Below are positions 23,430-41,779 of a stretch of 41,779 nucleotides of DNA, piece after piece. Source of the DNA: a virus. Where the stretch lies: positions 1 through 41,779 of IMG/VR virus record IMGVR_UViG_3300018005_000007. One strand, given 5' to 3'. The stretch's first letter is position 1. Every line of letters begins with the position of its first letter. Under the pieces are notes generated by a model. The model saw only the letters and a program-made list of their open reading frames with translations. It was not told the origin of the DNA and ran no database searches. The position numbers were made by a program, and so were the translations under genes.

Positions 23430-25022
23430 CTAGAAGGCCATCTTGACCGGCTTAGAAACAGGCGCAGGCGTCAGGTTTGGGGTATCCAAGCACTTCTTTA
23501 CCCGTTTCACCCCTTTGACGACGACGGAGCCGCCCAGGACGGCCGGCCCCAGGAATCCACCAGGACCGCCCCCAGCCCCACCGCCACCGCCGCCGGCTAC
23601 GAAAACAAATCTCTGAACCACCGGAGCGCCAGGAGCGAACAGTGAAAGCGTGATTCCCAAAGAACCGGGGAATGTATCAAGGTCGCTCATGTTCTGAGTT
23701 GGGAAATCGTATACCGAGCCGGTAATATCCCAGGCCGTATATGCCGCCCAATTCACCCCGTCTTGCGACCAGCAGACCCGGAGCCGCGCCGTAGGCTTCG
23801 ATCCGTCGAAGGATGGGACGATGTTCACGTAGTACAAGACTTGACCATCGAAGCAGAATGACCCAGACCCGCCCTGAGGAGTCGCATAGAGGTTCACGTC
23901 GCTATTCCGGTCAGGGTCTATCGGCCCCACCTTTTTCCAAACCGTAGGAGCCGAGAGATCGGCCACAAGGAAAAAGAACCCCGGCGCCGTCCCGTCGCGC
24001 ATCGGAACCAGGATTTTCCCATTCCACAGAAATGGATTTCCAAATTGAATCCGCGGATTCGCGGCCGGCGCGGGCATCAGCGAGAGCAAGGCTGAAGGAC
24101 CGAGGGTGTTGTTCAGCAAAATCTGCTGATAGGCGAAGTACGACGATGCCCCCACAAAACAGAAAACCGTGTGAAGCGTCCCGGTAACCGGGTCGAGCAC
24201 GGCCTTGACCGCCGAGGCCATGCCTTCGACACCCCCGACGTTCGGGAAATTCGCATCGAAAAAGAACGGACGCAGCCAGTATCGGTTTAGCGGAGCATCG
24301 GCAGGATCGGGCCACGCTTGAGCTTGAAACCGGGTTCCACCGTCGAAAGGCGCTTGATACCCCGGTAAGTCGCCGGCCTGATACCCAGCCCCGCTCAACA
24401 TCAGGAGCGTACCGTCAGGACGCAGCCACAGCGACGTGATGCCATCGGGGAAGATGATACGCGAGCCCCCCGTATCCTCAAACGCCGAGGGTCCAAGAGG
24501 CGCAAAGCTGTTTACCCACTCTTCCGTTGCCAGGTCGAAGTATTCACCCAGGATGAAGCCCACATTCAAGGGACGATTGAGCACGCCCACCAAAATTCTG
24601 CCGTTGAGCTTGTCGTACGCTACCGTGAAATTCGCGCTGTTCTCCGGCCCCCAAATCGGATTCATCGTCTGCCAAGTCACGCCCCCGTCAGTGGACTTGT
24701 ACGGCTGAACGCCCCACGTACCTTGAGGTTCGTTGTTCGGAGGAGCCAGGGGTTGAGTCGGAGGATTCCAGATCCCCATCAAGGCGTAATAGAACGTGTT
24801 CCCCCGTTTCCAAGGTCCGAATTGTTGGGCGCCACGGACTCTTACCGGCCAGTTGGCAGGCACGATCACATAAGCGTAGCCAAGAAGCATCCAAGAAGGG
24901 GAATCGCCAAGCGTGCCAATTGCTCCCAGCGAGTTTAAGTACGTGAACCAATCGCCCGGGAAAGAGCCGCCTTGATTCCCAATAACGTTGTTTTGGTCGA
25001 TGGGAATTGGTAGGTAGCTCAT
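23430..25022 (-). CDS. BNR/sialidase-like propeller virion protein with GVKR tail, 530 aa
   Basis: ATG 25022 overlaps the previous stop. Asp-box/BNR-type repeats (YKSTDGGVTWQTM near 110, CWSQDGVNWAAY near 420) mark a beta-propeller of the sialidase or sortilin kind. A Gly-rich run near residue 480 leads to a C-terminal module: a hydrophobic strand, VVKGVKRVKK, Cys, and a Pro/Lys tail. Catalytic residues of a true sialidase are not evident. A paralog lies directly upstream. A receptor-binding or spike protein held by its C-terminus is my inference. Confidence 0.76.
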   Translation of the reverse strand: MSYLPIPIDQNNVIGNQGGSFPGDWFTYLNSLGAIGTLGDSPSWMLLGYAYVIVPANWPVRVRGAQQFGPWKRGNTFYYALMGIWNPPTQPLAPPNNEPQGTWGVQPYKSTDGGVTWQTMNPIWGPENSANFTVAYDKLNGRILVGVLNRPLNVGFILGEYFDLATEEWVNSFAPLGPSAFEDTGGSRIIFPDGITSLWLRPDGTLLMLSGAGYQAGDLPGYQAPFDGGTRFQAQAWPDPADAPLNRYWLRPFFFDANFPNVGGVEGMASAVKAVLDPVTGTLHTVFCFVGASSYFAYQQILLNNTLGPSALLSLMPAPAANPRIQFGNPFLWNGKILVPMRDGTAPGFFFLVADLSAPTVWKKVGPIDPDRNSDVNLYATPQGGSGSFCFDGQVLYYVNIVPSFDGSKPTARLRVCWSQDGVNWAAYTAWDITGSVYDFPTQNMSDLDTFPGSLGITLSLFAPGAPVVQRFVFVAGGGGGGAGGGPGGFLGPAVLGGSVVVKGVKRVKKCLDTPNLTPAPVSKPVKMAF

Positions 25023-26386
25023 TGCTTCCACCAGTCGTTAGGCTTGGCAACCGGAGCCGGTTGCATCGGATTACACGTTGAAGCTTTCACTCGTTTGACA
25101 CCCTTCAAAATGACGATACCGCCAGTGATCGGACCAGCAAGAAAGAAAAGAGCGTTCAAGTTTGGCGGATTTGGACTGAAGGCCAGAACACTTGTTAAGA
25201 GCGAACCGGGCCGCAGGGGTTCAATGTTCATGGCTTGCCCGTTGAAGTTGAAGCCCGGAGGCGCGGGATCGGTCAAGTAGTCGAAGAGGGTTTGAGCGTT
25301 CCAAGCGGCGAGAGCCGCCGCACTCTGGCAGATGCGGAGTTGGTTCTGAACCTGAATCAGGTCCGTCGTCTGGATAAACGAGACGAACAATTGAGAACCA
25401 TCGAAGGCTATACGGGGCGAGCTGGTAGGCCGAAAGACCCCGAACGAGGCCGCGTCAATTCCAGGAGGCCCTAAAGCCGTCCAAACCGGCACCGCAAGAG
25501 GAGTACTTTGATAAACGTCCTGGTACTGCGTAATCGGACCCGCCAGGAAGCGGACCACCGGCCACACAAGCGAATCGCCATCGATAACGGGGTTCCCCCA
25601 GTCCTGAATGTCTACCGGCGTTACGCCCTGCCCTGGAAAGTCGAAGAAAGGGCCAAGGGTGTTGTTTGCTAAAACTTGCTGGTAAAATGTCCGCGCGTCC
25701 CATCCAATTGGATCTTCTGGAAGCCCCCCAACCGTGAAAAAGACATGCAGACGGTCGTTTGCATCGACGACTGCTGGAAAACCCGAGTTCCCACTGAGAG
25801 CGGAGATTGCCGGGAACAACGGCAGCGCCCGCGCGTTCACACCCAAGTCGAAGATGGGAGACCAAACCCCACCAAAAAACGTCTGAAAACCAAAATTCGG
25901 ATTAGGTAAAGGACCAGGATCGGGGTACTGAGAGATCAGGACCAGTTCACCCGTGGAGCGCCGATAGAGTCCCGACAGTGCGAGCGGAGTCGGAGCGCCT
26001 ACAAGCCCGAACGGAAGACCCCATGTATCGGTAACCAGGTTGAAGTTTTGCAGGAAGACCGGCCCGCCAGTTCCAAAAGGAACGGCCGCTGGCAGAATTG
26101 CAAACGTGACGGTATTCAATCCGTCGAAGACCGCACACCTGTAGTTGTACACTCCAAACGGTTCATTGGCTATGTCGAGAGCCTTCCAAGTTCGCCCTGC
26201 GTTTGAAGACTTCCATATCCGTGTTGCGTATTCCCCGTTGACGTTGGTTATGTCCAGATAGGAACCGCATCTGTAGAGATCCGTGCCCCGCCGAAAGACG
26301 CCCGGATCGTTCAGAAACGGCTGTATCCCGAAAATGCTAATATTCGGCCCCGCCAGTGGGTCGATTTGGATGGGGAAGTAGGCCAT
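25019..26386 (-). CDS. Paralogous BNR/propeller virion protein with GVKR tail, 455 aa
   Basis: It starts MAYFPIQIDP, matching MSYLPIPIDQ of the downstream paralog. BNR-type IWKSSNAGRTWKAL is near residue 60; weaker repeats follow. The C-terminus has IVILKGVKRVKAS, then a Cys and a Pro/Lys/Trp end (APVAKPNDWWKQ) shared with the 112-aa protein encoded at 26763. Duplication followed by divergence is likely. A host-recognition role is plausible but unproven. Confidence 0.75.
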   Translation of the reverse strand: MAYFPIQIDPLAGPNISIFGIQPFLNDPGVFRRGTDLYRCGSYLDITNVNGEYATRIWKSSNAGRTWKALDIANEPFGVYNYRCAVFDGLNTVTFAILPAAVPFGTGGPVFLQNFNLVTDTWGLPFGLVGAPTPLALSGLYRRSTGELVLISQYPDPGPLPNPNFGFQTFFGGVWSPIFDLGVNARALPLFPAISALSGNSGFPAVVDANDRLHVFFTVGGLPEDPIGWDARTFYQQVLANNTLGPFFDFPGQGVTPVDIQDWGNPVIDGDSLVWPVVRFLAGPITQYQDVYQSTPLAVPVWTALGPPGIDAASFGVFRPTSSPRIAFDGSQLFVSFIQTTDLIQVQNQLRICQSAAALAAWNAQTLFDYLTDPAPPGFNFNGQAMNIEPLRPGSLLTSVLAFSPNPPNLNALFFLAGPITGGIVILKGVKRVKASTCNPMQPAPVAKPNDWWKQ

Positions 26387-26388
26387 GA

Positions 26389-26763
26389 CTACAGCAGATT
26401 GGTGAGGTCCACAGAGAGATGCGACCCAGGAGGACACACAAGCTCCGGTTCGAAAGCAACAGCCGGCCCCGAGCGCGTGAAGACTCCAGAAGGTACGAAA
26501 TCCGTGCTAGAACTCAGGAATACGCCGTCCGAATCTCGAAAACGGACACCCAACCCCCCTAGACTCGGGTCGAGCACTTCAATGGACCGGACCCGATATT
26601 CGCCGTCCGTTTCCAAGGGCAAAGACACGTTGAGCAGCGTTTGACCGGGGAAGAGAAGCACGTTCATCGCGGGAGTGTTCAGCCCGTCGAAGACGTACTC
26701 GAAATCGACATCTTCCCAACCAGGAGGGGCAGGCTCAAAAGCGAATTGCGGCCGGTAATTCAT
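26389..26763 (-). CDS. Jelly-roll-like virion protein, 124 aa (MNYRPQF family)
   Basis: ATG 26763 overlaps the upstream stop (TGATG). The start MNYRPQFAFEPAPPGWED and the sequence FDGLNTPAMNVLLFPGQTLL, then LPLETDGEYRVRSIEV, are clearly related to the protein encoded at 32768-33226. The pattern of alternating strands suggests a single jelly roll. Unlike that relative it ends without the GVKR tail (SHLSVDLTNLL); the next downstream genes have it. Confidence 0.72.
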   Translation of the reverse strand: MNYRPQFAFEPAPPGWEDVDFEYVFDGLNTPAMNVLLFPGQTLLNVSLPLETDGEYRVRSIEVLDPSLGGLGVRFRDSDGVFLSSSTDFVPSGVFTRSGPAVAFEPELVCPPGSHLSVDLTNLL

Positions 26764-27101
26764 CAGTTCCACCACTTGATAGGATCGGATTTCGGCATCG
26801 GCTCAAGTTCGCAGACATTCATCTTGCGGATTCTCTTAACCCCTTTGACGATCACTTTTAGCGTAATCCCAAGAGGAAAGCCCGCTCCGAGGAATCCGTA
26901 CACCACCGTCTTGGTGAAGTTGAGCCCCAGCAAAGGAGCCAGGACCGCGTAGGCGTTCGCCTTCGTCACGTTCACACCAGGCTGAATGGGGCTGGGAGCC
27001 AAGGGAACATACGCCCCCGCTTTTGAGAAATTGATGCCGAGTCCCGGAGCCAGGACCGCATAGGCATTCGCTTTCGTGACGTTCACTCCCGGCTGACTCA
27101 T
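26763..27101 (-). CDS. Repeat protein with PGVNVTKANAYAVL units and GVKR tail, 112 aa
   Basis: Residues 3-17 and 40-54 are the same unit (QPGVNVTKANAYAVL), each followed by a weaker half-repeat (GINFSKAGAYVPL, GLNFTKTVVYGFL). The period is 37 residues. Similar repeats occur in phage surface proteins. The C-terminal module LKVIVKGVKRIRKMNVC and a DPIKWWN end match the propeller proteins downstream. It may be a connector or spike-base subunit. Confidence 0.75.
   Translation of the reverse strand: MSQPGVNVTKANAYAVLAPGLGINFSKAGAYVPLAPSPIQPGVNVTKANAYAVLAPLLGLNFTKTVVYGFLGAGFPLGITLKVIVKGVKRIRKMNVCELEPMPKSDPIKWWN
26935..27096 (-). repeat. 51-base direct repeat pair within the 112-aa repeat protein gene
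   Basis: 26935-26985 and 27046-27096 are about 85-90% identical by eye, spaced 111 bases. They encode the duplicated PGVNVTKANAYAVLAP unit. Differences are mostly at third codon positions, so the protein copies are kept by selection. Confidence 0.8.
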
Positions 27102-28117
27102 GCCGCCGACCTCAGATTAAGTTGAAGCCCCGTCAAATCCGCTTGCACCCAAGGATTCCCGGTTACAGGGTTGATCGAGTCGAGCTGTTCGTACGTCTCG
27201 TATCCCGTCGTCAAAGCCTGATCCGGCCCCACGGCCACCAGTCCCCCTTGATTGAAGCCTAACGCGACCTTGGTAGGAGTCGGAGCCAGGGAAACCGCGG
27301 AGCGCGCAGCAATCTTGACCGCCTTGATGACGAAGACGCCGAGAGGTAAAGGCGTCAAGGCAAACTGCTGATCTTGCGCCACGAGGTTTGTAAAATTCGG
27401 ACTCGCATCGCTGATGATAATAGCGTTCACGTCCGAGAAAAGCCCAGTCCATTGGTCCGTTGTGCCTTGAGCCGACGGCGCCATGGTGACGAGTCCAGGG
27501 AAGGCCCTTGTATCCTCATCCGCGACCATGATCTCCGAGCACGATACCCCGATGTGGTTTGCCACCCCGATAGCGTCCGTCAGAAAGACGCTATTGAAAT
27601 TCGCCATGCCCGCTACCGTCACGTCGCCGGAAAACGTGAACAAAAACGCCCCATCCAGATAGACGTTGACCGTGGCAGCCGCCCCGTAGTTCACCACCTG
27701 CACATCCAGCTTGTAAGCCGTTTGCAGGGTCAGGGAATTGCCAGGTTCCGCCGCCAGTTGGGTAGTCGTCACGCCATCCGATTTGCACAGCGCCAGCCGA
27801 GTAGGAACCGCGGCATCCGTTCCGATGAACAGGCCCTTTACGGTCCCGCTCAATCCGAACCCAATAGATTTCTGATTGCCAAGCGCCCCGCCCCAGGCTT
27901 GATTCGTCCAAATCTGGCAGGACAGCCAAGCCGAGGTCACAGGACCACCAGCGAAGGCCAGCGTCTTGCTCAGAGGCCCATTACCCGTCCCGTTGCTCTG
28001 CTGGTAGATTGCACAGCGGCCGTAACCCGGCCGGAAGTGCCCTGCCGTGGTGTCGATAAAGACCGATACCCCGTTTGGAAAGTCGATATCCTCAGCTCCG
28101 CACCAAAGGACTGGCAT
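27098..28117 (-). CDS. LamG/concanavalin-like beta-sandwich virion protein, 339 aa
   Basis: Residues about 10-200 read as a lectin-like sandwich (YGRCAIYQQS, TVNVYLDGAFLFTFSGDV), as in LamG-type carbohydrate-binding domains of phage fibres. A second beta domain has LPLGVFVIKAVKIAARSA, reminiscent of the GVKR strand. The stop overlaps the next gene by four bases. A glycan-binding spike or fibre component is likely. Confidence 0.7.
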   Translation of the reverse strand: MPVLWCGAEDIDFPNGVSVFIDTTAGHFRPGYGRCAIYQQSNGTGNGPLSKTLAFAGGPVTSAWLSCQIWTNQAWGGALGNQKSIGFGLSGTVKGLFIGTDAAVPTRLALCKSDGVTTTQLAAEPGNSLTLQTAYKLDVQVVNYGAAATVNVYLDGAFLFTFSGDVTVAGMANFNSVFLTDAIGVANHIGVSCSEIMVADEDTRAFPGLVTMAPSAQGTTDQWTGLFSDVNAIIISDASPNFTNLVAQDQQFALTPLPLGVFVIKAVKIAARSAVSLAPTPTKVALGFNQGGLVAVGPDQALTTGYETYEQLDSINPVTGNPWVQADLTGLQLNLRSAA

Positions 28118-28118
28118 A

Positions 28119-28537: not shown

Positions 28538-29263
28538 TCAGAATGGCACAGATTCCCGGTAACGGCCACGGCTCTTACGCGCACTGCCGAGCTTTGATGC
28601 GAACTCAGACCGCTTGCTTGCCGGCGTTGCCCGTATCATCGCCACTGCGTCAGACGTTTTCATGGTGGAGGTCAGGCCGGCATTCTTGTACGGGTACTTG
28701 TGGGGCGTGATCGCACCCACGGCTTGAACCCACTCCCCAAGGTTTGAAGCCCCACCTGAGGCCGAAGGGTTGTACTGAGCCGTTCTCCGTCCCATTCCCG
28801 ACCGCTTCAGGGCGTTCGCATGAAGGGCGTTGCAGCTTCGACAGGTCCAGACCAAGTTTTCCGGCTCAGTGTGGGACTCGTGGCCGTCGAGATGCCCCAC
28901 CATGATTTGCTTTCGAGAACCGCAGAAAACACAGACCTTCGGACCTGGAGGCGGATCGGCGTTTGCACGATACCGCAAGGCCCGATCTGTGATGTTCCGT
29001 TGGCCGTATCCCTTGCGCCAACCCTTAAGCCAGGGCTTCTCCATCCCGGCCGGGATGCCTTCATACTGGACAGCGATCCGGTACTGCGATAAGACGCTGG
29101 GTTTCGCCATGCTACGAACGCCGCGGCTGCTTCCCGGCCCGACTTGCCGAATCATATCCCGAGCCGCTTTGTCAGCTTCCCGGCGTACGTCCAAAGCGTC
29201 TAAGGGATTCGTGCGGAGTTTCTGAACCGACCGACGCGGGAAGTTGACCACCACCACGGGCAT
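28538..29263 (-). CDS. HNH endonuclease-like protein, 241 aa
   Basis: A zinc/HNH core lies at about 109-150: CVFCG, then VGHLDGHESHTEPENLVWTC and RSCN, i.e. Cys-x2-Cys, His pair, Cys-x2-Cys and the Asn of HNH. The basic N-terminus contains a short arginine motif. The C-terminal region (GRRTAQYNPSASGG, then KTSDAVAMIRATPASKRSEF) recurs in environmental viral proteins I recall. It is encoded within the structural operon, unusual for a packaging-type HNH without a terminase. It may process DNA at entry or packaging. Confidence 0.78.
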   Translation of the reverse strand: MPVVVVNFPRRSVQKLRTNPLDALDVRREADKAARDMIRQVGPGSSRGVRSMAKPSVLSQYRIAVQYEGIPAGMEKPWLKGWRKGYGQRNITDRALRYRANADPPPGPKVCVFCGSRKQIMVGHLDGHESHTEPENLVWTCRSCNALHANALKRSGMGRRTAQYNPSASGGASNLGEWVQAVGAITPHKYPYKNAGLTSTMKTSDAVAMIRATPASKRSEFASKLGSARKSRGRYRESVPF

Positions 29264-29267
29264 AGGG

Positions 29268-29807
29268 CTACCGCCGCCGTTTCGCCGTCTTGCGTCTCAC
29301 AGCCCTGCGGATTCGTACTACCATGCGGCCAGCCTTCCGAGTGATCTTGACGGCTGTAGCCGGTATCCAGCCGGAGGGAGGATTCGAGCGGCCGGCTTTT
29401 CTTTGCAGAAAAGCGTGGAAATACCGAGCCCGAGACCCGCTGGCATTCTTGGGCTTGCGGTATCCGACCTTGTTAGCCTCTTCGAGAATCCCGTCCACTT
29501 GGCTAGAACTCAAAACGTGGAAGTCCTCACCCGCAGCGATGTTTAGCCCCTGCAAAGTGCGTCGGGCGCTATCCGCAGTTACAACAGGCTTGCGCCGCGG
29601 GTTGCCTTTTGCCTCTTGAATTGCAAAGCGCGTGCCGCCGTCGATCCGTAAAAGCCGCTCACCGGCCTTCAGATGCGGAGCGCCGATGTGTATTTCGCCC
29701 TCTTTGAGCTTGCGGGCCACCGCCGCTTCAGCGTTCGAGCCTTCGTACGCCCGATAGTACCGCACGGCGTCTTTTCGACTCACGAAATAGCTTGTACCCC
29801 ACGTCAT
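29268..29807 (-). CDS. Basic virion-type protein with GWxPxTAVKI tail, 179 aa
   Basis: The mixed N-terminal domain (TSYFVSRKDAVRYYRAYEG) resembles small 'primpol-free' phage domains; the middle is helical. The end, NPPSGWIPATAVKITRKAGR and a run of Arg/Lys (RRKTAKRRR), is related to the tail of the 244-aa protein encoded at 31149. A DNA-condensing or DNA-anchoring internal protein is likely from composition. Confidence 0.7.
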   Translation of the reverse strand: MTWGTSYFVSRKDAVRYYRAYEGSNAEAAVARKLKEGEIHIGAPHLKAGERLLRIDGGTRFAIQEAKGNPRRKPVVTADSARRTLQGLNIAAGEDFHVLSSSQVDGILEEANKVGYRKPKNASGSRARYFHAFLQRKAGRSNPPSGWIPATAVKITRKAGRMVVRIRRAVRRKTAKRRR

Positions 29808-29816: not shown

Positions 29817-30383
29817 TCACGCCGGCCACGTAAACCCGGAGAACACCGAAATGCAGTAGTTGTTAAGCCCAGTCGAGACGTTCTGAATTGTCGTCACCTT
29901 CGATCTCAACTGGGTTTCCGGTTTCAGGATGAACGGCTTCGGAAACAGCCAAGGCGCCGCGATGCCGCCGAGGGAGCCTTGAGGCCCTACGAAGCCGCCA
30001 AGGGGAATCGGAACCTGAAAGAGACCAGGAAGCGGATTCGCCATCAGCGCAATGATACCGACCGGCGAATCCTGATCCACCGTCCAGTACATATCACCCG
30101 ACCCCGGAACGAACCCCGCACCGTTGTAAATCTGAACGATGCCGCACAGAGCGAATTGAAGGCCCGCAGGCACGTCGTACCGGAGGACTTCGGTTTCGAG
30201 GCCACCAGCGGAGAGATACGCAGGCGTGACAACAGCCCCCACCCGAAACACCGGCTCCGCAGACTCGGGGGGAAAAGCCCAGGGGAAAGGCCACTGATCC
30301 CGGCGTCTTTGTTCTTGGTTAACCGAGTGCATGGCCTTGACCGCTTCAGGCCCGGTAACGACGCGCATTTGGTCTACTTGCAT
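29817..30383 (-). CDS. Beta-rich virion-type protein, 188 aa
   Basis: GAGG precedes ATG 30383, and the gene overlaps the upstream stop by ten bases. A helical N-terminus (PEAVKAMHSVNQEQRRRDQW) precedes a beta domain with strands such as YDVPAGLQFALCGIVQIYN and a final CISVFSGFTWPA. The strand order resembles the other jelly-roll-like proteins nearby. It is a probable minor capsid or vertex protein; no named family is recognised. Confidence 0.68.
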   Translation of the reverse strand: MQVDQMRVVTGPEAVKAMHSVNQEQRRRDQWPFPWAFPPESAEPVFRVGAVVTPAYLSAGGLETEVLRYDVPAGLQFALCGIVQIYNGAGFVPGSGDMYWTVDQDSPVGIIALMANPLPGLFQVPIPLGGFVGPQGSLGGIAAPWLFPKPFILKPETQLRSKVTTIQNVSTGLNNYCISVFSGFTWPA

Positions 30384-30880
30384 TGGTCAACCTCCAGGGC
30401 GCCGATAAGGACCTCGATCCTTTGTTGAGCCGCCGTGTTCTGAATCGAGGCCCGAAACAGGCCGGAGCCGACGACGGGATACGGCGAGTCGAACAGGTTC
30501 CAGAATGCCGCCATCTGCGTTACGTTCGCGTCCAAGACCGTGGGATGGTAGTTCGCAATGAGGACCGAGGGTACAGGTTCATCGAAGAACTTGTGCCCCG
30601 TGGACAGGTCTTCAAGTTGGAACGTGAACTGACCAGGCAGGCCCGTGACCGGATCGGGAGGCAAGAGGATGCCGAGAAGCAAATCCCCGACCGAGACCTC
30701 CAGGCCGAACTCCACATACCCACCGGCCGGGACCACTTCATTCTGCGGATCGGGAACCCGGTAGATTTTCGGCTGATAGCAGTCCTCATACGCCAGTGGA
30801 GCGAGTTGCGCCAGCACCAGGGGATTGTACGAGCCCCAAACCTCACGGATAAGAGGGTCGAGAGAGAGCGGACCAATCAT
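30374..30880 (-). CDS. Beta-rich virion-type protein, 168 aa
   Basis: A short helical start is followed by strands typical of a jelly roll: VVPAGGYVEFGLEV, GQFTFQLEDLSTG, and a last strand RIEVLIGALEV. The TGA overlaps the downstream gene. It sits in the run 29817-34179 of similar folds, suggesting several capsid or vertex subunits of common origin. Confidence 0.68.
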   Translation of the reverse strand: MIGPLSLDPLIREVWGSYNPLVLAQLAPLAYEDCYQPKIYRVPDPQNEVVPAGGYVEFGLEVSVGDLLLGILLPPDPVTGLPGQFTFQLEDLSTGHKFFDEPVPSVLIANYHPTVLDANVTQMAAFWNLFDSPYPVVGSGLFRASIQNTAAQQRIEVLIGALEVDQCK

Positions 30881-34179: not shown

Positions 34180-34475
34180 TCTTTGACCGCCTTTTTGCGC
34201 CCTACCCGAAAAACCGCCTCAATCAAAAGACCGGCCACGCCGCCTAACATGCTCCGAATCTCCCACCGAACCTCTGCCGCCTCCGTTTCAATGGCCGTTA
34301 GACGCCGTTCTGAATTGATGGATTCGAGGACCACGAGTCGCCGGTCTTGATCTAGCTGATGTTCCCCAACCACAGCCAGAGAAGACGGAGCTTGAGCCGC
34401 CACACCTGGGAAAATCGCCAACATGAGGCACAACACGGCTGCAAGCGCAAGATATGAAACCCGAATCACTATCAC
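34176..34475 (-). CDS. Membrane protein, 99 aa
   Basis: The start is GTG 34475, overlapping the upstream TGA (GTGA). The N-terminal hydrophobic segment (7-28, ALAAVLCLMLAIFPGVAA) ends in a possible signal cleavage site AQA. A charged coiled-coil-like middle (LVVLESINSERRLTAIETEA) and a hydrophobic Gly-rich segment near 75-90 with a Lys-rich end follow. It is a probable virion membrane or periplasmic protein. Confidence 0.68.
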   Translation of the reverse strand: MIVIRVSYLALAAVLCLMLAIFPGVAAQAPSSLAVVGEHQLDQDRRLVVLESINSERRLTAIETEAAEVRWEIRSMLGGVAGLLIEAVFRVGRKKAVKE

Positions 34476-34642
34476 CGTTTGCCACCCCCACTACCCACCA
34501 ACAAAGCAGCAGCAACCGCCAAAGCCAAGGAAAGCCACGGATGAGCCTCAATCCACCCAGAGACGCCGGAGGCACCAGCCGCACAACATGCGGGTTGTGA
34601 CCAGACCGCATCGCCCCACGGAGGTTCTGTATTCCGATACAT
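34472..34642 (-). CDS. Small tail-anchored membrane protein, 56 aa
   Basis: A gggag site six bases upstream selects ATG 34642 (MYRNTEPPWG) over a GTG four codons earlier. A soluble Cys/Gly part (SQPACCAAGAS) precedes a C-terminal helix at about 36-50 (LSLALAVAAALLVG). The Met-Tyr start partly resembles the MY..GLG group, without the Gly-Leu-Gly. Confidence 0.66.
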   Translation of the reverse strand: MYRNTEPPWGDAVWSQPACCAAGASGVSGWIEAHPWLSLALAVAAALLVGSGGGKR

Positions 34643-34744
34643 TGGCTCCCCCACTGTAACCCCACAGACGGGACGCCGGCAAGCCCTCGCTCAGGACCCT
34701 ACCGGCTCCCGCCCATGGTCAAGCCCTACGCCGTCAGTCCGAGA

Positions 34745-35476
34745 CTACAGGACCGGCCGGTCGATGAGCCCGAACAGGAACGCGACGATCTCCGTGCCGA
34801 CGCCAGGGGTAGGAGTTACCTTGTCACTCGTCAGCATTGCCTGCCCCGGCTGATTCGTGATCGGGCTCACGGGTCCCGAGGTCGGCGGGAAATACAGGTT
34901 GAAGCTCCATTGCAACTGCGGAGCCAGGTACTTCCCGTACCGCCCGAACCGCTTCTTGTCGTTGGGCGAGGGTACGCCCAACTGCCACCCGGACTCCGTG
35001 GTCTGAGTCGTGTAGCCCGACAGCCCCATGCCGGCCGGGTACGCCTGCAAGGGTCCATCCCACTGGACTTTTCCGAGAATCGCCATCTCGAAATAGCCGT
35101 ACCGACGCAGAATGTCGTGGTCGGCCTTGATGGTCACCGGGTCGATGAAAACCCCGATCCCGTCCACCACAATATCGTAGGGAGGCGGGAGACCCGCGTT
35201 GCACCGCGCCGGGATGTTGGTTTCGACCTTCGTCAGAATCGGGAACGGAGGCCCGACGATGGTTGCCAGCGGGTACGGGTCGGCTTCGCTGAGAGCCGCC
35301 GAGAACAGGTTGTACTGCGCTGCAAGCGCCGTTGCAGGGGCGAGCTTCAGCTTGTAATAGTAGTGGCCGGTTACCCGGTCGGAAACGCCCTGCATCAGAG
35401 CGTTGATATCCACATTCCCAGTGGGGCTCACGTCAACCGAAGTTCCGCGAACCTTCTGAGGCATTACGCCAGACAT
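34745..35476 (-). CDS. Candidate major capsid protein (jelly-roll-like), 243 aa
   Basis: The gene has the best expression signals of the late block: a gagga ribosome site, a structured leader of two hairpins and a gap on both sides. The protein is beta-rich with few charges. Strands include VTGHYYYKLKLAP, YDIVVDGIGVFI, FEMAILGKVQWDG, LQWSFNLYFP and a last IVAFLFGLIDRPV. The size is similar to corticovirus-type coat proteins. No HK97-fold features are seen. The assignment is by composition, context and elimination, not by homology. Confidence 0.6.
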   Translation of the reverse strand: MSGVMPQKVRGTSVDVSPTGNVDINALMQGVSDRVTGHYYYKLKLAPATALAAQYNLFSAALSEADPYPLATIVGPPFPILTKVETNIPARCNAGLPPPYDIVVDGIGVFIDPVTIKADHDILRRYGYFEMAILGKVQWDGPLQAYPAGMGLSGYTTQTTESGWQLGVPSPNDKKRFGRYGKYLAPQLQWSFNLYFPPTSGPVSPITNQPGQAMLTSDKVTPTPGVGTEIVAFLFGLIDRPVL

Positions 35477-35585: not shown

Positions 35586-36437
35586 CTAATTCCAGTCCGA
35601 TGCGTTCACCAGGGCGCCCACTCCCGAGGAATGAGTTGTACCCGGAAGCAACGCCGGCCCCGGCCCGAACCCCGGAGGAACGATGATCCCCGTGGGCGGA
35701 TAGCCCGAGACCCGCTGAGGCGTGGCGAAATTCCAGTTGGTCATGTAGTCGCCCAGGCCGGCACCGCTCAAGAACGAGCCGTACACCGTTTGGTCCGACA
35801 TGAACCGCACCAGAATTTGAGCGATGCCGCCCGCGATCACCATCTGAGAAATGGACTTGTCGCGGAAGACCAGATGGGCGCCCCAACCCAGAGCAATGGT
35901 TGCCCCCAGGTTGCCGACGTAGCCCGTCGCTCCCGTGTTCTTCGTTCCGAGGACCAACTGAGTGAGGGCCTTCGATCCCACCGCGCCGCCGACGACGGCC
36001 GCGCCCGAGACCACGTACCCCATCATCCGGCCCCCCGGATTCCGGCGATGAATAACCCGCCGCTTCATGAACGGATTCCGCCGACGACGACGCCCCGGCT
36101 CATTGCGCTTGTGGCTTCCAGCGCGATGCTGGGAGCGTCGTTTCTTCGTGCTCTTTGTCATGCTGCTTCTCCTTTTTGTCGCTGGATTCCCAAACGCATA
36201 GACAATCTCACCGATGTTCCGGCGCCGCGGCGTGCGCTGGGTATGTCGCCGCTGAACTCGTTTGCGCGGAGCGGACTTGTGGCGCCGCGCGGAGAGCGAC
36301 CGCTTTGCAGCGGATCGCTGGGCTTTACTGCCGAAATGCAACTTCTGTTTCAGACTCATGCGTCGAGCCATCTTTGTCCTCCGTGCCCGACCATGAGCCG
36401 GGTTAGCTATCAAAGTTGTTCGTTCCGAGTACGCCAT
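35586..36437 (-). CDS. Arg-rich DNA-binding membrane protein, up to 283 aa, several starts
   Basis: Three in-frame ATGs each have a purine-rich ribosome site: 36437 (ggag), 36371 (ggagg, MARRMSLKQKLHFG) and 36161 (aaggag, MTKSTKKRRSQH). I annotate the longest. The first 130 residues are extremely basic, with repeated RRNP-like motifs. Then come hydrophobic Gly/Ala segments at about 139-163, 175-192 and 199-212, and a Pro/Gly-rich end. It probably links condensed DNA to a membrane. Long and short forms may both be made. Confidence 0.72.
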   Translation of the reverse strand: MAYSERTTLIANPAHGRARRTKMARRMSLKQKLHFGSKAQRSAAKRSLSARRHKSAPRKRVQRRHTQRTPRRRNIGEIVYAFGNPATKRRSSMTKSTKKRRSQHRAGSHKRNEPGRRRRRNPFMKRRVIHRRNPGGRMMGYVVSGAAVVGGAVGSKALTQLVLGTKNTGATGYVGNLGATIALGWGAHLVFRDKSISQMVIAGGIAQILVRFMSDQTVYGSFLSGAGLGDYMTNWNFATPQRVSGYPPTGIIVPPGFGPGPALLPGTTHSSGVGALVNASDWN

Positions 36438-36475: not shown

Positions 36476-36898
36476 CTATCGAGCCGCCGAATGCGCCCGC
36501 CAGCCGAAGACCTCCGCAACCACCGAAGTCGTAGGCAACGCCCCGCCCGACCCCGCAAACGCCGCCTTCATGAGCGTGACGTAGGTTGTATCCCACGTCG
36601 CCGCCCATACAAACGGCGTCACAGTATCCGGTAGAAGGGCGGGCGTGATCAGAAATTCCTGGGGTCGATTGCCGAAGCCGTGAGCGAACGTAGTCGAGGT
36701 ATCCGCGTCCTCAGCCGTGATCTGCCAGGTTTTGAAGTTGTGAGACGACCACCCCGGCGTAGCGACGATAATACCCACGATGCCGAGCGAAAGTACACTC
36801 GTCAGGATGGTTGCCGGCGAAGCGCCGTGATGGATCACGAGGAACCCGGCCGCCAAAGCGACGAGCAGAGCAAAAAGCACGTTGTACAGACGTTTCAT
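36476..36898 (-). CDS. Membrane protein with two N-terminal helices, 140 aa
   Basis: Helices at about 7-24 (VLFALLVALAAGFLVI) and 28-46 (TILTSVLSLGIVGIIVA) form a hairpin anchor. A beta-rich domain follows (FKTWQITAEDADTSTTFAHG). Coupled to the glycosyltransferase gene by ATGA. A virion membrane protein carrying an exposed beta domain is plausible. Confidence 0.7.
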   Translation of the reverse strand: MKRLYNVLFALLVALAAGFLVIHHGASPATILTSVLSLGIVGIIVATPGWSSHNFKTWQITAEDADTSTTFAHGFGNRPQEFLITPALLPDTVTPFVWAATWDTTYVTLMKAAFAGSGGALPTTSVVAEVFGWRAHSAAR

Positions 36899-38280
36899 AC
36901 TGCAATCTCCTGATTTTGATTTGGTTCAGAAATCGAAACTACCCGGCCTTTCGCGGCGTCTTTCGCCCGCGGGACGGGGTTCATCTTCAAGTGCTCAACA
37001 AAAGCCAGCGGGTGAATGAAGATCCGGTATCCCGCCCGCCTCGCGCGTTCGCACCACGAAATGTCATCGGCCATGAATTCTCCGCTTTTTTCATCCGTGA
37101 TGATCGGCGTAAAGGCTTGCGGCCCCAACTTTTCGAGTACCGAGCCTTTCATCAGCAGCATTCCGAAGCCGATGTAAGCAATGTCTTCCAGTAGTTGGCC
37201 GGCGTCTCGCGCCCTCAGAACTTCCGCTTCGGTCAGTTGCTTCGAGCAGTCCATCTCCCAACCGGCCGCGATGTAGGTTTGCTCATTATCGGGACCGGCG
37301 TAGCGATACCACGCCCCGATAATGTCAATCGAAGGCATTTCGGGCTGCTTTTCCGAAGCCTGTATTTGCGCCATGAGATGCCCGAAGGCATCGAGACTCG
37401 GGGGATTATCCGAGTCGATCCATAGCACGTAATCTGTAAGCCCGAGGGCTAGGGCGCCTTTGGCCGCGACCGCACGGACCCGATAGATGTTGTTCGATGT
37501 GCCGTACATGCGAGAGACCGAGAAGCGGACCAGGAGGTACGCAAACAGCTTTTCCCACTCCCGAAGCCATTTCGCATCAAACGGAGTGCCAGGGGTAATC
37601 ACACAGATGCTCTTTTGCCCCGAACGCTCTTTCTGGCGCCGCAAGAGAACCTGTTCTTTCACCGCCCAGGCTTCGTTACGATTGGTATGCTGATACACCG
37701 GATCGCCCGTGTTCTGAGGGTGAATCCCTTGCTTCAACGGGTGACGATGCTCAAACTTCAGCCGCTTCGCTTGGATCACAACGCCGTCTTTGTAGGCTTG
37801 CTCCGTAAAGTCGTCATCACAGCCGACCGATAGAAACTCGGGGTACAGAAGCTCACCCTTGCAGCCGCGATCTTGTTCGTAGTACTTGCGCGTCAGAATC
37901 GGATGCGTCATGAGCCAGGGCCAAGGGTCTTGAGCGTCCACATGCACCGCGTACGGCTTTTCCAGGTCGGGTATGACGCTCAGGAGCGCCGTGTCCCATC
38001 CCTGCGGAGGAAAGAAGTCATCAGCCACGAATACCAGGATCGTACCCGTCGAGTTTCGCGCCGCCAGGTTGCAGGCATCCACCAAACAAGGCCGCTTGTG
38101 GTTCACCACCAGCCGCACACCGTCATACAACAGATCCCGATTGAACGCGCCGCCCGCATCCACGGCGAGGATGTACTCTACCGAGTCGGGATGGTCGCAG
38201 GCTTTCATCCAAGCGTCATGGGTTGCTTCCCACCTGGTGGGACGCGCCGAAACGTGGAGCAAGGAAAACAGAGGTTTCAC
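36895..38280 (-). CDS. Two-domain glycosyltransferase (GT-A type), 461 aa
   Basis: The N-terminal half resembles GT2: EYILAVDAGG, then NLAARNSTGTILVFVADDFF with the acidic ADD that binds the metal/nucleotide. A second GT-A-like half starts near 225 (ICVITPGTPFDAKWLREW) and contains YVLWIDSDNPPS, a DxD-type motif, and later a DDISWCERARRAGY acceptor-side motif. It would transfer sugars to glycans or proteins in the cytoplasm. Encoded among virion genes, it may glycosylate virion proteins, or the host surface together with the fucose synthase. Confidence 0.82.
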   Translation of the reverse strand: MKPLFSLLHVSARPTRWEATHDAWMKACDHPDSVEYILAVDAGGAFNRDLLYDGVRLVVNHKRPCLVDACNLAARNSTGTILVFVADDFFPPQGWDTALLSVIPDLEKPYAVHVDAQDPWPWLMTHPILTRKYYEQDRGCKGELLYPEFLSVGCDDDFTEQAYKDGVVIQAKRLKFEHRHPLKQGIHPQNTGDPVYQHTNRNEAWAVKEQVLLRRQKERSGQKSICVITPGTPFDAKWLREWEKLFAYLLVRFSVSRMYGTSNNIYRVRAVAAKGALALGLTDYVLWIDSDNPPSLDAFGHLMAQIQASEKQPEMPSIDIIGAWYRYAGPDNEQTYIAAGWEMDCSKQLTEAEVLRARDAGQLLEDIAYIGFGMLLMKGSVLEKLGPQAFTPIITDEKSGEFMADDISWCERARRAGYRIFIHPLAFVEHLKMNPVPRAKDAAKGRVVSISEPNQNQEIAV

Positions 38281-38498
38281 GCTGCAACCTCCGGCTGAAC
38301 AATAGAGCTTTCGCGCGGATCGAATGCCCTGATGATGATGCCGCCCTCTGCAAAGGCCGCGTCAGACATTCTCTTTGCAACCCGTTCAAGAGGCGTGGTC
38401 ATACGCTCAGAAAAAGGTATCGGAGGATCAACGGAAATGTTTACCACCACCGCGTTGCCCGTCCCGTCCGTCTGAAGCCTGAAAGTGATTGTTCTCAC
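38277..38498 (-). CDS. 73-aa protein of unknown function
   Basis: The start is GTG 38498, overlapping the upstream stop (GTGA). A beta-rich first half (MRTITFRLQTDGTGNAVVVN) is followed by a helix and an ending EGGIIIRAFDP. There is no recognised family. Confidence 0.62.
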   Translation of the reverse strand: MRTITFRLQTDGTGNAVVVNISVDPPIPFSERMTTPLERVAKRMSDAAFAEGGIIIRAFDPRESSIVQPEVAA

Positions 38499-38707
38499 GA
38501 AACCACCTCCGCAAGCGTGAAGCGGTTCGGGGCGTTGCCGTTCGAGTTGAAAATCCGCTCTACCGCTTTCACAAACGTGGAAGCCGCCGAACTCGCAGCG
38601 AACAGTTCACGCGACCCGTCCGCATGGACTTCGTAGGCGTTAAACCCATCTTTCCCAACTTCGAGGATGAACGTCTTGGGAGCCGTGAGAATGCGCGGAG
38701 CCATCAT
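38495..38707 (-). CDS. 70-aa protein of unknown function
   Basis: Two successive ATGs at 38707 overlap the stop of the large basic gene. Short alpha/beta sequence (TFILEVGKDGFNAYEVHADG ... TFVKAVERIFNSNGN). Coupled on both sides. Not recognised. Confidence 0.62.
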   Translation of the reverse strand: MMAPRILTAPKTFILEVGKDGFNAYEVHADGSRELFAASSAASTFVKAVERIFNSNGNAPNRFTLAEVVS

Positions 38708-40056
38708 TTGTCGATGCCCTCCGCTCGAATTTCGTACGTCCCACCACTGAACTCCAGGGCCTTATCGCGCACCCGGTAGATGAGATCCGGCCCATACCCT
38801 ACTTTTTTGTGGCGCCCGTTCAAGGACGTGGTTCCCGCTTTGTGGAAGTAGATGGCCGTACCCCCTTCGCTACCGAGATGCTTCTTTGTGGTGAAGTACT
38901 GGATCTCCGTGACTTGCCCCAGCGTTTCAACTTCATGCGGAGGCTTAATCCCGTAATCCGAGAGGTCTACCGCCTGATCCCCACCACGGATGAAAAGCTG
39001 GTCCTTCGTTTCGTTTGAGCAGAGCTTCGCGCCCTTGAATCCCGAGATGCGATGTTCGTAGCCGTCGATGCCGTTGACAACCAGAAGCTCAAGCCGGCCC
39101 AGTTCCGCCAGGTGCTCATGGAAGTGAAGCCGCTCCGTCAGTTCGACAACGGAGGTCGAAGGCGTACCGTGAAACTCTTCGTACACCTCAGCAGCGGCAG
39201 CAGCGGGGTTGCGCTTCGGAGCTTGCCACATGGCCCAGTGCTCGAAACGCTTATCCCAAAGCCAAACGCTTCCATCGGGTAGCTCCGCGCGCCCGTCTCG
39301 TTTCAACGTGTGCGGAGTTTCCGCCATCTGCCGAGCCGTCATCGTGCGCTTGACCACACCAGCATTGCGCCGCGCCGCCCTTTCGCGCCCTGCCTTTGCC
39401 GCCCGCGCCGGATTCGCAATCCGCTCCAGGTCCGCATCGCCCGAGGACCCCGGCCGAATGTCGAGCAGCGTCATTTTCAGTACGCCCCACTGGGTAACCT
39501 GATTCCCCATGCTGGAGGACACTACCCGGTAGCCTTTTGCCCGAAGCTCCCGAGCTCGCCGCTTCAAATCGGGATCTCCCGTTTCGTAGGTTTCCTGAAT
39601 CCAGCCCCGGCCGTGAACAGCGAGAGCCGCCGCGTTGCGCTTGCCGCCCCGCGCCGCCCTCTTGCGCCCTGCCTTTGCCATAGCTTGAAACTTCTTTGCT
39701 CCGTACTTCTTTCGCCCAGCAGAGGCACAGACGGCTCTTGGATCGTAAGCGCCGCCTTTTTCAGCGACCCGCGCCACACAGCGTTTGAAGGCTGAACCCG
39801 GGATACCCGGATTCATCGCCATGAACTCTTTGAGGTTGCCCCCTTTGGCATAGTGCGCTTTCAATTTCCGATCCAACTGAGCATCCGTGAACTTCTTGTG
39901 CAGCCGCTCCGCTTCCAACTCTTTGGCTTGTCTGGCCGCGGCCTTTTCGGAGACAGCGCGTCTGGAGGGTCCAGCCGTGCGAGTCCTGCGGTACGTAGTC
40001 TTCGAGCCGAACAACCGGCCGAGCAGACTATTCCGTCTTGTCGCACGCTGTTTCAT
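38704..40056 (-). CDS. Large basic virion-type protein with GGDQ domain, 450 aa
   Basis: Residues 1-150 are Lys/Arg/Ala-rich with PRAVCASAGRKKYGAKKFQA, a pattern of nucleic-acid-associated phage proteins. A middle linker contains RRN-type motifs. The C-terminal domain (about 285-450) has AAAEVYEEFHGTPS, KGAKLCSNET, RGGDQAVDLSDYGI and a KHLGSEGGTAIYFH stretch. I recall this domain from uncharacterised environmental viral proteins; no function is known. It is a likely internal or DNA-associated structural protein. Confidence 0.74.
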   Translation of the reverse strand: MKQRATRRNSLLGRLFGSKTTYRRTRTAGPSRRAVSEKAAARQAKELEAERLHKKFTDAQLDRKLKAHYAKGGNLKEFMAMNPGIPGSAFKRCVARVAEKGGAYDPRAVCASAGRKKYGAKKFQAMAKAGRKRAARGGKRNAAALAVHGRGWIQETYETGDPDLKRRARELRAKGYRVVSSSMGNQVTQWGVLKMTLLDIRPGSSGDADLERIANPARAAKAGRERAARRNAGVVKRTMTARQMAETPHTLKRDGRAELPDGSVWLWDKRFEHWAMWQAPKRNPAAAAAEVYEEFHGTPSTSVVELTERLHFHEHLAELGRLELLVVNGIDGYEHRISGFKGAKLCSNETKDQLFIRGGDQAVDLSDYGIKPPHEVETLGQVTEIQYFTTKKHLGSEGGTAIYFHKAGTTSLNGRHKKVGYGPDLIYRVRDKALEFSGGTYEIRAEGIDK

Positions 40057-40343
40057 CAGACTTGAGCCATTGCCGCCCGCGCGCTACGCTTGCGCCTCAG
40101 GGTCTTCCGAACGCCCGTAACGCCCTGTCTCGTGGTGGAGAACAGGGAGAAGACCACGAACAGGCTCATTCCCACCGCCGCGTATTCGGCCCAGGTCCAG
40201 GTTGAAAGGTTCGTCACAGAGACCCCGTTACCAAACACGCCCGTTCCGAAGAGACCGGAGCCGTCCATTGACCAGGCCCCGAGGCCGCAGCATCCGAGTC
40301 CAGCCGGAGCCGCTAACGCGCTGTTATCCGCCGAAACGTACAT
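40056..40343 (-). CDS. Membrane protein with MYV start and GLG element, 95 aa
   Basis: Start MYVSADNSALAAPAGLGCCG at 40343, directly abutting the upstream stop (TGA-ATG). Gly-rich ectodomain, one helix near 50-66 (AAVGMSLFVVFSLF), then a basic tail (TLRRKRSARAA). The GLG occurs at residues 15-17 and again at 20-22. A probable virion membrane protein. Confidence 0.74.
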   Translation of the reverse strand: MYVSADNSALAAPAGLGCCGLGAWSMDGSGLFGTGVFGNGVSVTNLSTWTWAEYAAVGMSLFVVFSLFSTTRQGVTGVRKTLRRKRSARAAMAQV

Positions 40344-40586
40344 TCAGTTTCTCCCCCTGAAAATCACCAAGGCCGCAAGGAAAGCAATCCCGAGGGACAG
40401 GGGAGTATTCGCCGCAATCCACTCCGAAGCAGTTTGCGCCGGCTGTTCAACCGCTACCGGAACCTCTACCACTTCGCTGTAGCCGTCGCCGCCCCAACCG
40501 CCCCCATACCACCCGCCACCGCCCCAACCACCGCCATGATGCCCATGGTGATGATGCGGAGGGGGAGCGCCCATTCCGACGTACAT
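40344..40586 (-). CDS. His/Gly-rich tail-anchored protein with MYVGMG start, 80 aa
   Basis: MYVGMGAPPPHHHHGHHGGG begins a His- and Gly/Trp-rich, low-complexity ectodomain (about 8-37). A short acidic linker and a C-terminal helix (58-75, LSLGIAFLAALVIF) follow. The histidine cluster could bind metal. ATG 40586 overlaps the preceding stop (TAATG). Confidence 0.74.
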   Translation of the reverse strand: MYVGMGAPPPHHHHGHHGGGWGGGGWYGGGWGGDGYSEVVEVPVAVEQPAQTASEWIAANTPLSLGIAFLAALVIFRGRN

Positions 40587-41026
40587 TACCTTCGCCCCCT
40601 TCCAGAACTGAGAAGAAACACGCCGGCCCCGACCGCTACGGCAATCGCAATAATCGCCATAGTCGAGAGGCCGGCAGTCTCGGGAATCGTGACCCCCTGG
40701 AGGTTCACAGCCGCCGCCGCGTTCGCTTGCGTATCCGTGACTTGTTGAGCCAAAGCCGCATCGACTTGCGCTTGCACCTGATCGGGAGTCATCTTAGCCA
40801 GAGCCGCGCTATCGTACGCCCCCGGAATCGCCGGGATGCCAGCCACCGTGCCAGGTCCAAAGGGATTCGTGAACCCGGCGATTTGCCCCCAGGCTTCAGG
40901 TGAGTATTTCGCACACTTCGCAATGAAGACGCCCCAAAGCAGCGGATTCGAGCAGTCGATGGTTCCAAAGGGCCACATCGTTGGAAGGTCCGACATATCC
41001 CCGACGCCCCGAGCAACGTAGCTCAC
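40586..41026 (-). CDS. Tail-anchored membrane protein with MSYVARGVGD start, 146 aa
   Basis: GTG 41026 overlaps the upstream stop (GTGA). The start SYVARGVGD is a variant of the MY..GLG tag. An ectodomain with Cys pairs (TIDCSNPLLWG, AKCAKYS) is followed by an Ala/Gln-rich helical region and a C-terminal helix (116-138, IAIAVAVGAGVFLL) with a basic end. The same architecture as its neighbours. Confidence 0.75.
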   Translation of the reverse strand: MSYVARGVGDMSDLPTMWPFGTIDCSNPLLWGVFIAKCAKYSPEAWGQIAGFTNPFGPGTVAGIPAIPGAYDSAALAKMTPDQVQAQVDAALAQQVTDTQANAAAAVNLQGVTIPETAGLSTMAIIAIAVAVGAGVFLLSSGRGRR

Positions 41027-41244
41027 CGGCCACCCCCGAGCGCCGCTTCAACGGCCCTTCCAAGCCCCGTCTTAAAGAGGTTGCGTTTCGGAACGAACTC
41101 CCGGATAAGGCCCGCCGCCACCGGCTCAAGCCCGCAGTCCCAAAGACGGACGCCCAGGTGTGGCTCTACCCGCGTGCGGACTACACGCTCCGCGACCCTG
41201 AGTAGCGCCAGATCCGCCCGTCCTTTGGGATTCGCCTTTGTCAT
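41023..41244 (-). CDS. 73-aa protein of unknown function
   Basis: ATG 41244 (MTKANPKG) is chosen because it overlaps the upstream TGA exactly; a GTG at 41259 would add five residues. The sequence is helical and basic (ALLRVAERVVRTRVEPHLGV) with a Gly/Leu end containing TGLG. Not recognised. Confidence 0.64.
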   Translation of the reverse strand: MTKANPKGRADLALLRVAERVVRTRVEPHLGVRLWDCGLEPVAAGLIREFVPKRNLFKTGLGRAVEAALGGGR

Positions 41245-41558
41245 CGAAGCATCAACCACGGATTCGGAGCCGCCTTGAGAAGGTTTCCAGATTGCACGTT
41301 TCTCGACACGACGCGCGCCGCCTGCTTTCCAATCTCAGAAGCCGCCCCTTCGGTCCGGTTCACAACTGAGAGCGCCCCGCCCGCACACCGCAAAAGTCCT
41401 AATTCGTAGTCCGTAAAACCAGGCTTGATCCCGCAGAGATAACCGGCTACTAGTCGTTCTAGTACAGCAGCCATCCCAGGGCTCAAGACTTTCGCCATGT
41501 TCTCAAGAGCATCCACCTGAGACGGTTGAGGACGACGATAGACGGCTACAGTGCGCAT
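41241..41558 (-). CDS. 105-aa helical protein
   Basis: ATG 41558 overlaps the stop of the gene that spans the join. Mostly helical with Ala/Leu/Gly (LSPGMAAVLERLVAGYLCGI), no transmembrane segment of full length. Function unknown; it sits in the small-protein cluster of the late operon. Confidence 0.64.
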   Translation of the reverse strand: MRTVAVYRRPQPSQVDALENMAKVLSPGMAAVLERLVAGYLCGIKPGFTDYELGLLRCAGGALSVVNRTEGAASEIGKQAARVVSRNVQSGNLLKAAPNPWLMLR

Positions 41559-41779
41559 CAGCGGGCCACCTTCATCAGAAGCAAGACGCCCAAACCGACG
41601 CCAGCCACAATCGCTATCGTCTGAGCGTTTGCGTTCAGCCAGGGCGTTAAACCCGGCACCGTGCCACCCGATGCCGCCGTGGGATTCGGGACGCTCGAAA
41701 TCACCGGAGTCTGGCCCAAGAACGGATCGAGCGTAAACCCGGAATCCGCGCTGGTGTCCAGCGTGGCCGGCGTAACCGC
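41558..41779 (-). CDS. Tail-anchored protein, 3' part (continues at 123-141 through the join)
   Basis: This is the same gene as the one ending at position 1. Here it supplies the 33 last codons plus the repeated part: PGLTPWLNANAQTIAIVAGV and VLLLMKVAR, a membrane helix, with the stop at 41558-41560. Its TGA overlaps the next ATG. The start codon lies in the other copy at 141. Confidence 0.8.
   Translation of the reverse strand, partial: AVTPATLDTSADSGFTLDPFLGQTPVISSVPNPTAASGGTVPGLTPWLNANAQTIAIVAGVGLGVLLLMKVAR
41657..41779. repeat. Terminal direct repeat, right copy
   Basis: Identical to 1-123. It should be trimmed once to obtain the 41,656-bp circle. Confidence 0.93.

Follow-up and report, generated by a model that had tools for sequence, protein, structure and literature searches.

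How does a virus with a genome of more than 40 kb load its DNA if no packaging motor can be recognised among its genes? This question is raised by the IMG/VR virus record IMGVR_UViG_3300018005_000007, which we analysed at its full length of 41,779 bp (hereafter the window), naming each gene by its lower coordinate. The original prediction, made from the letters alone, had described positions 23430-41779 as a late region devoid of HK97 coat, portal, terminase, and packaging ATPase and had proposed a new tailless lineage. Our results moderately favour the view that the window is the complete circular genome of an undescribed family, lytic-looking, tailless, and probably membrane-containing, which would load its DNA without an ATPase of its own.

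A direct repeat of 123 bp is present at both ends of the window, which is therefore a complete genome, circular or circularly permuted, of ~41,656 bp. Relatives were reached through a prokaryote genome collection. Its scan returned PLGA01000082.1 (G001), a 39,481-bp contig of a bog metagenome-assembled genome (MAG) of Bryobacterales (Acidobacteriota) with 59% identity over 316 residues to the 33223 product, and orthologue alignments used as queries then yielded the IMG/VR relatives G258 (23.3 kb), G652 (38.5 kb), G653 (36.5 kb), G654 (40.0 kb), and G655 (12.7 kb); IMG/VR scans with single proteins or with an alignment of two paralogues were without success. The six relatives comprise four long genomes (G001, G652, G653, and G654; 36.5-40.0 kb) and two fragments (G258 and G655). 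No relatives of the beta-rich proteins of the window were found in INPHARED and PLSDB, and no description of such a virus family was found in the open-access literature searched. Seven late genes (26389, 28538, 29817, 30374, 31888, 32768, and 33223) occur in the same order in all six relatives, 34745, 35586, and 38704 in the five relatives spanning that region, and 41023, 605, 1215, 2412, 4023, and 7006 in all four long ones. Because this collinear cassette recurs, the window, as judged by sequence comparison, belongs to a real virus family and is no chimera; the most fitting label is that of an undescribed lineage of soil viruses, at family level, with genomes of 36-42 kb. Terminal repeats were also found in G652 (127 bp, within the capsid cassette) and G654 (116 bp), sited elsewhere than those of the window, and the coat genes common to G652 and G655 are 95-99% identical despite separate metagenome records. 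The late content first described for 23430-41779 held up, but its limits did not, as the cassette reaches down to ~20212 and crosses the circular junction to ~2276. The host is most likely an acidobacterium of the Bryobacterales, a link of moderate strength because it is based on one MAG contig and on the similarity of the HNH gene in a few Bryobacterales genomes. If true, the family would infect Acidobacteriota, which abound in soil and whose viruses are little known, and its capsid-bearing nature would be one that current marker genes miss.

We then looked at the packaging genes. Pfam and PHROG scans covered 70 window proteins (32 late and 38 early), and no terminase, portal, HK97 coat, or packaging ATPase was among the families listed, which for the early genes were the 25 commonest. 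Among the late genes, the strongest matches were to a GT2 glycosyltransferase, to HNH nuclease families, and to two PHROGs with no assigned function, one of which (phrog_6368) lies on 27098. Six-frame searches with the FtsK_SpoIIIE, Terminase_6N, and Phage_capsid (PF05065) profiles returned no match at E <= 1 in either the window or its four long relatives; as positive controls, the FtsK and terminase profiles matched in the host MAG and all three profiles in control genomes. Hence neither the HK97-fold major capsid protein nor the large terminase subunit of Caudoviricetes was found by these profiles, nor was the portal, which was covered by the proteome scans only, and no tail-module gene was found. 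The FtsK/HerA-type packaging ATPase of Bamfordvirae (PM2 and PRD1 type) was likewise not found in the window or its four long relatives, and of the Helvetiavirae set (two single-jelly-roll major coats and a packaging ATPase) the ATPase is absent, while single-domain beta paralogues of putative fold are present. The family thus lacks every tailed-phage marker tested and the ATPase of PM2, PRD1, and single-jelly-roll viruses. When all window frames were scanned for [GA]x4GK[ST], the sole match in a credible gene was GLARFGKT in 4023-4505, which was rejected as a P-loop, being kept in G652 and not in the G001, G653, and G654 orthologues; across core genes of at least 120 aa, no GK[ST] site is conserved between orthologues. 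Bacterial DNA viruses of 36-42 kb normally encode DNA-packing motors. Four further long genomes have this cassette and lack these genes too, which gives good support to a new virus lineage in which no packaging motor can be recognised; on this point the original prediction, including the profile search that it proposed, was borne out.

The second line of evidence is a family of beta-domain proteins. The 26389 and 32768 products are 33.6% identical (BLASTP, E 9e-16), and a profile comparison of orthologue alignments joined 26389, 32768, both halves of 33223, and the N half of 31888 through six pairs (E 5e-27 to 1.4e-4). By hhalign, the N half of 33223 matched 32768 (E 1.8e-6), its C half 26389 (E 5e-5), and the N half of 31888 again 32768 (E 3.6e-6). 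The C half of 31888 was marginal in the profile comparison (E 0.003-0.004, the best clearly unrelated pair being at ~0.007). Because the comparison joins these domains, they are read from their alignments as one beta domain, single in 26389 and 32768 and in tandem in 33223, probably also in 31888. The open reading frame of 32768 was listed from 33340, yet conservation starts only at residue 38. An AF2 model of 31888 built from six sequences (pLDDT 60, pTM 0.46) has 16 strands in two beta-sandwich domains (residues ~6-139 and ~155-294). With VIA-align, its top match was SPV1 (Z 8.6, 129 residues, 3.3 A), and it was also aligned with SH1 (Z 7.6, 121 residues, 3.6 A), HHIV-2 (Z 7.5, 115 residues, 3.6 A), HCIV-1 (Z 7.3), the P23-77 VP16-VP17 chain (Z 6.8, 118 residues, 4.2 A), PBCV-1 (Z 6.6), and PRD1 P3 (Z 6.5, 110 residues, 4.1 A); the GC1 tectivirus major capsid protein (E 6e-4) and PRD1 P3 (E 3e-3) were among the best Foldseek matches. 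Bacterial toxin chains in the VIA-align list were set aside as beta-sandwich look-alikes at middling Z with no functional meaning. As the match values lie near the search background, the model suggests, rather than establishes, a jelly-roll fold for 31888. Double jelly rolls had been suspected in 34745, 31888, and 33223: paralogous single and tandem beta domains together with the 31888 model give moderate support for the latter two, whereas the prediction for 34745 failed (pLDDT 32). We infer an icosahedral jelly-roll shell, built of the tandem-domain proteins and/or 34745 and surrounding an internal membrane, with the single-domain paralogues as penton or minor capsid proteins. That single and tandem copies are still related in sequence would, if true, give a direct view of the possible origin of double jelly-roll coats from single ones. 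A short motif, G-V-K-[RK], recurs in the C-terminal parts of 23430, 25019, 26763, 32768, and 33223 and at the domain end of 31888, and is perhaps a shared last strand or docking motif.

A tailless jelly-roll virus could also be filled by a motor that runs on ATP, one taken from the host or a viral one too divergent to be seen. Pumping into shells is the normal route for genomes of 36-42 kb, and the core proteins 2412, 4023, and 38704 lack an assigned role. Yet the lack of any conserved GK[ST] site speaks against a hidden viral ATPase, and a signal for recruiting a host ATPase is not known here, so that we consider such a motor unlikely, though it is the explanation that survives best beside the motor-free one.

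To this we add an asymmetry between the strands which was absent from the earlier reading, yet bears directly on DNA replication and loading. At four-fold degenerate sites, the late-coding strand carries more G than C and more T than A, whichever way the genes run and in almost all 4-kb bins around the circle. The strand component was 0.19-0.32 (AT) and 0.10-0.22 (GC) in all five long genomes, the transcription component being at most 0.07, while in a small control set of tailed double-stranded DNA phages (lambda, P2, P22, N15, B3, and AhaSv) the strand component did not exceed 0.11 (AT) and 0.13 (GC). Of the six, P2, whose replication starts from a nick at the origin, came nearest on both measures, and the single-stranded FLiP gave an AT component of -0.42 from only 40 minus-strand sites. 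The two strands thus differ in their histories over the whole circle. Because the skew is tied to the DNA strand and not to gene direction, it points to replication in one direction, by theta or by rolling circle, or to a single-stranded virion genome, between which the skew does not separate. The presence of a relative in a bacterial MAG, and of resolvase and methylase genes, is compatible with double-stranded DNA at least in the cell. A bolder proposal is that virions carry the late-coding strand, rich in G and T, as a single-stranded circle of 36-42 kb, packed motor-free into a jelly-roll shell, and that the double-domain coats of this shell are derived from single-domain paralogues which the genome still encodes beside them; we hold this to be somewhat less likely still than the hidden motor. 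Such a genome, if real, would far exceed that of any single-stranded DNA virus known to us. The single-stranded genome of the spiravirus ACV has 24,893 nt.

Could the window instead come from a tailed phage in which coat, portal, and terminase are too diverged for profiles to detect? It has modules in common with tailed phages, namely the 27098 adhesin and a topoisomerase-like gene found in many of them, and 2412 gave a weak tape-measure-like score (E 0.31). However, terminase is among the best-detected phage proteins, yet none was listed by PHROG or Pfam or matched by the six-frame profiles, and neither a conserved P-loop in the window or its long relatives nor a tail-module gene was found. 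This origin is therefore improbable.

Next, the small and basic late proteins were considered. A hydrophobic segment is present in ~12 of the 16 small late products (Kyte-Doolittle), and 35586, 38704, 31149, and 29268 are strongly basic, so that the mixture of beta-rich, small membrane, and Arg/Lys-rich proteins noticed at first is indeed there. An internal membrane and tailless particles are inferred. Many small proteins start with M-Y-x(0-9)-G-[LFMV]-G: all 23 such starts in the six genomes lie on the late strand, shuffled genomes would be expected to give 0-0.2 each, and a C-terminal membrane span is found in most of the proteins concerned. In the window the motif lies at 20212-21503, 28119-28523, and 40344-40586, and it was also seen in G652, G653, G654, G001, and G258; it is possibly a sorting or processing signal. 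Cys-His-Asp is conserved in the transglutaminase-like domain of 1215, and the G653 orthologue reads MYQWRGGMGD at the RGLGD segment, resembling the starts of the small membrane proteins; our guess is that the 1215 enzyme cuts or links the MY..GLG proteins. The 35586 product, a candidate DNA-condensing and membrane-linked protein by its composition, has no span above the Kyte-Doolittle cut-off used.

The many small membrane proteins with C-terminal anchors would also suit a pleomorphic, vesicle-like, or other non-icosahedral membrane virus with the beta proteins as surface spikes rather than shell; no motor would then be needed, and basic membrane-linked proteins could tether the DNA. We regard this as quite improbable, as tandem and single copies of one beta domain are present and the best structural matches include icosahedral capsid proteins. 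Least probable is a plasmid-like element or satellite with no particles of its own or a helper's shell, which would fit a circular, motor-less genome with a resolvase gene (22403) but not the ~20 late genes, conserved and transcribed the same way, the two enzymes for cell-wall lysis, the adhesins that phage virions also have, and the lack of any partition, conjugation, or plasmid replication family among the families listed.

For the motor-free, membrane-containing virus that we favour, the following course may be proposed. Adsorption would occur through spikes of the 27098, 23430, and 25019 type, and 20212 would open the cell wall. Replication would be one-way, by rolling circle or one-way theta, with host enzymes and with 7006 or a different core protein to start it, and the cassette would be expressed late. 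The DNA would not be pumped into a finished shell; instead, the basic and partly membrane-linked 35586, 38704, 31149, and 29268 may condense it at a membrane patch while the shell forms, and release would be aided by 20212 and 21701. Shells without a viral ATPase have precedents in FLiP (PMC7654751) and the Odin group (PMC5894146), and in the latter, according to what Yutin et al. proposed, the capsid would assemble around the genome (PMC5894146). Within this scheme, gene content, paralogy, conservation, and skew are the parts that were observed.

Several points weigh against it. No replication initiator, helicase, or polymerase was recognised. The viruses without packaging ATPase that we know of are small (FLiP has 9.2 kb, and the Odin genomes are among the smallest of their supergroup), and a 40-kb case would, to our knowledge, be the first. 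The 31888 model scores poorly (TM-scores 0.15-0.35), its Z values are near the level common for unrelated models, non-viral beta-sandwiches ranked among its matches, and the model of 34745, the other major capsid candidate, failed. Furthermore, PDB searches with three profiles and hhalign tied no capsid candidate by sequence to a known capsid gene. A 40-kb shell filled without ATPase would, if true, break the small-genome rule and test how much DNA co-assembly can enclose.

Among known viruses, the family appears to work most like FLiP (Finnlakeviridae). It shares with FLiP and PhiCjT23 a circular genome, beta-rich candidate capsid proteins, a lytic transglycosylase, a marked one-strand base skew, and the lack of a packaging ATPase. 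In contrast to FLiP, its genome is ~4 times larger (36-42 kb against ~9 kb), its genes lie on both strands, and a rolling-circle Rep was not found, none being among the Pfam and PHROG families listed. Between the FLiP coat and the coat candidates, no hhalign pair was better than E 0.046, a divergence too great for this comparison to speak against a common fold. Because size and Rep differ and the coats have no sequence link, we do not file the window under Finnlakeviridae. The Odin group (PMC5894146), compared by description, is also uncultured and without detectable packaging ATPase, but its genomes are the smallest of the supergroup. With Corticoviridae (PM2) and Tectiviridae (PRD1 and GC1) the window shares a possible double jelly-roll coat, small membrane proteins, and a lysis enzyme among the late genes, and the 31888 model weakly resembles PRD1 P3 and the GC1 coat; unlike it, those viruses encode a packaging ATPase, and no sequence relation was found. 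Genomes in these two families are ~10-18 kb. That of PM2 has 10,079 bp. In the Sphaerolipoviridae and P23-77-like viruses, the SH1, HHIV-2, HCIV-1, and P23-77 coats align with the N domain of the 31888 model (Z 6.8-7.6), but separate single-domain coats and a packaging ATPase are used, whereas the window family has tandem-domain proteins beside single-domain paralogues.

Table. Features of the window; percentages are amino acid identities to relatives.
Coordinates	Strand	Feature	Evidence
1..123	.	Terminal direct repeat, left copy	With right copy gives circle of ~41,656 bp
141..656	-	Cassette membrane protein	Predicted
605..1213	-	Membrane protein	N-terminal MY..GLG in relatives
1215..2276	-	Transglutaminase-like domain, RGLGD segment, C-terminal membrane span	Pfam Transglut_core E 0.0078 at best, weak
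2412..3854	+	Conserved early protein	32-69%; no significant profile match
4023..4505	+	Conserved small early protein	36-73%
7006..8055	-	Conserved winged-helix protein, candidate replication initiator or regulator	HTH and winged-helix Pfam matches; 40-64%, all long relatives
20212..20763	-	Lytic transglycosylase, MYLSRGLG start, C-terminal membrane anchor	Pfam SLT 8.5e-27 in early-gene scan; gene assigned by sequence and hydrophobicity; 49-85%
21701..22240	-	Glucosaminidase-like lysis protein	Pfam Glucosaminidase 8.6e-19 in early-gene scan; gene assigned by sequence
23430..25031	-	Large variable late protein, spike/adhesin candidate	Paralogue of 25019
25019..26437	-	Large variable late protein, spike/adhesin candidate	
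26389..26775	-	Single-domain beta protein	Paralogue of 32768; 54-75%
27098..28117	-	Adhesin-like, probable receptor-binding module	phrog_6368 7.8e-23; shared with 23 tailed-phage records
28119..28523	-	MYVSGLG-type membrane protein	
28538..29263	-	HNH-type Arg-rich protein	PHROG HNH in cassette scan, weak Pfam HNH; 50-80%
29268..29807	-	Basic protein	Paralogue of 31149
29817..30383	-	Conserved protein, 188 aa, probable virion protein	49-90%; no profile match
30374..30880	-	Late protein of most even conservation, 168 aa	65-79%
31149..31883	-	Basic protein	Paralogue of 29268; basic C-terminus common to relatives
31888..32784	-	Two-domain beta protein, 298 aa, candidate double-jelly-roll capsid	53-64%, all relatives
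32768..33229	-	Single-domain beta protein, penton- or minor-capsid-like candidate	Same domain family
33223..34179	-	Two-domain beta protein, 318 aa, candidate double-jelly-roll capsid	55-60%, all relatives
34176..34475	-	Small membrane protein	Predicted
34472..34654	-	Small single-span membrane protein	Predicted
34745..35476	-	Conserved 243-aa protein, other major capsid candidate	51-67%, all long relatives
35586..36437	-	Arg/Lys-rich N half, Gly-rich hydrophobic C half	54-73%
36476..36898	-	Small protein with N-terminal hydrophobic segments, possible spike or membrane protein	
36895..38280	-	Glycosyltransferase-like (GT2)	Pfam GT2 2.9e-6 in cassette scan; gene assigned by sequence and size
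38704..40056	-	Arg/Lys-rich 450-aa protein, candidate DNA-binding core protein	40-69%; no profile match
40056..40343	-	Small MY..GLG-type protein	
40344..40586	-	Small C-terminal-anchor protein, MY..G-G type	
40586..41026	-	Small C-terminal-anchor protein	
41023..41259	-	Small conserved late protein	43-85%
41657..41779	.	Terminal direct repeat, right copy	

With respect to replication, three copies of AACGCAG lie ~10-11 bp apart at 2354-2381, in the divergent promoter region between 1215 and 2412, and G654 has the same spacing with AACGCCCC; these repeats are candidate initiator or activator sites. The HIH (HUH-like) motif of 15512, the only such motif, was rejected as a Rep signature, the protein having a signal-peptide-like start and beta character. 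The topoisomerase-like gene (9885-10895; phrog_6247, 1.4e-110) is common in tailed phages of many hosts and, among the five long genomes, is present in the window only.

As to the host, three other Bryobacterales genomes have stretches of DNA that are 68-70% similar to the HNH gene (28538-29263), a weak link, and a 31-bp match in a Bryobacterales genome was rejected as a CRISPR spacer, as it lies without surrounding repeats. Genes for a nucleotide-sugar epimerase (14552-15493), a glycosyltransferase (36895-38280), and a methyltransferase (19533-20108) probably serve surface modification. Finally, two repeated arrangements were observed. Three consecutive small genes at 12352-13132 end in PPKEAA, and a 27-nt stretch containing that end and the next start is repeated, as if the genes were copied as cassettes. 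An 87-nt tandem repeat (77% alike) at 26899-27096, within 26763-27101, encodes two PGVNVTKANAYAVLAP units.

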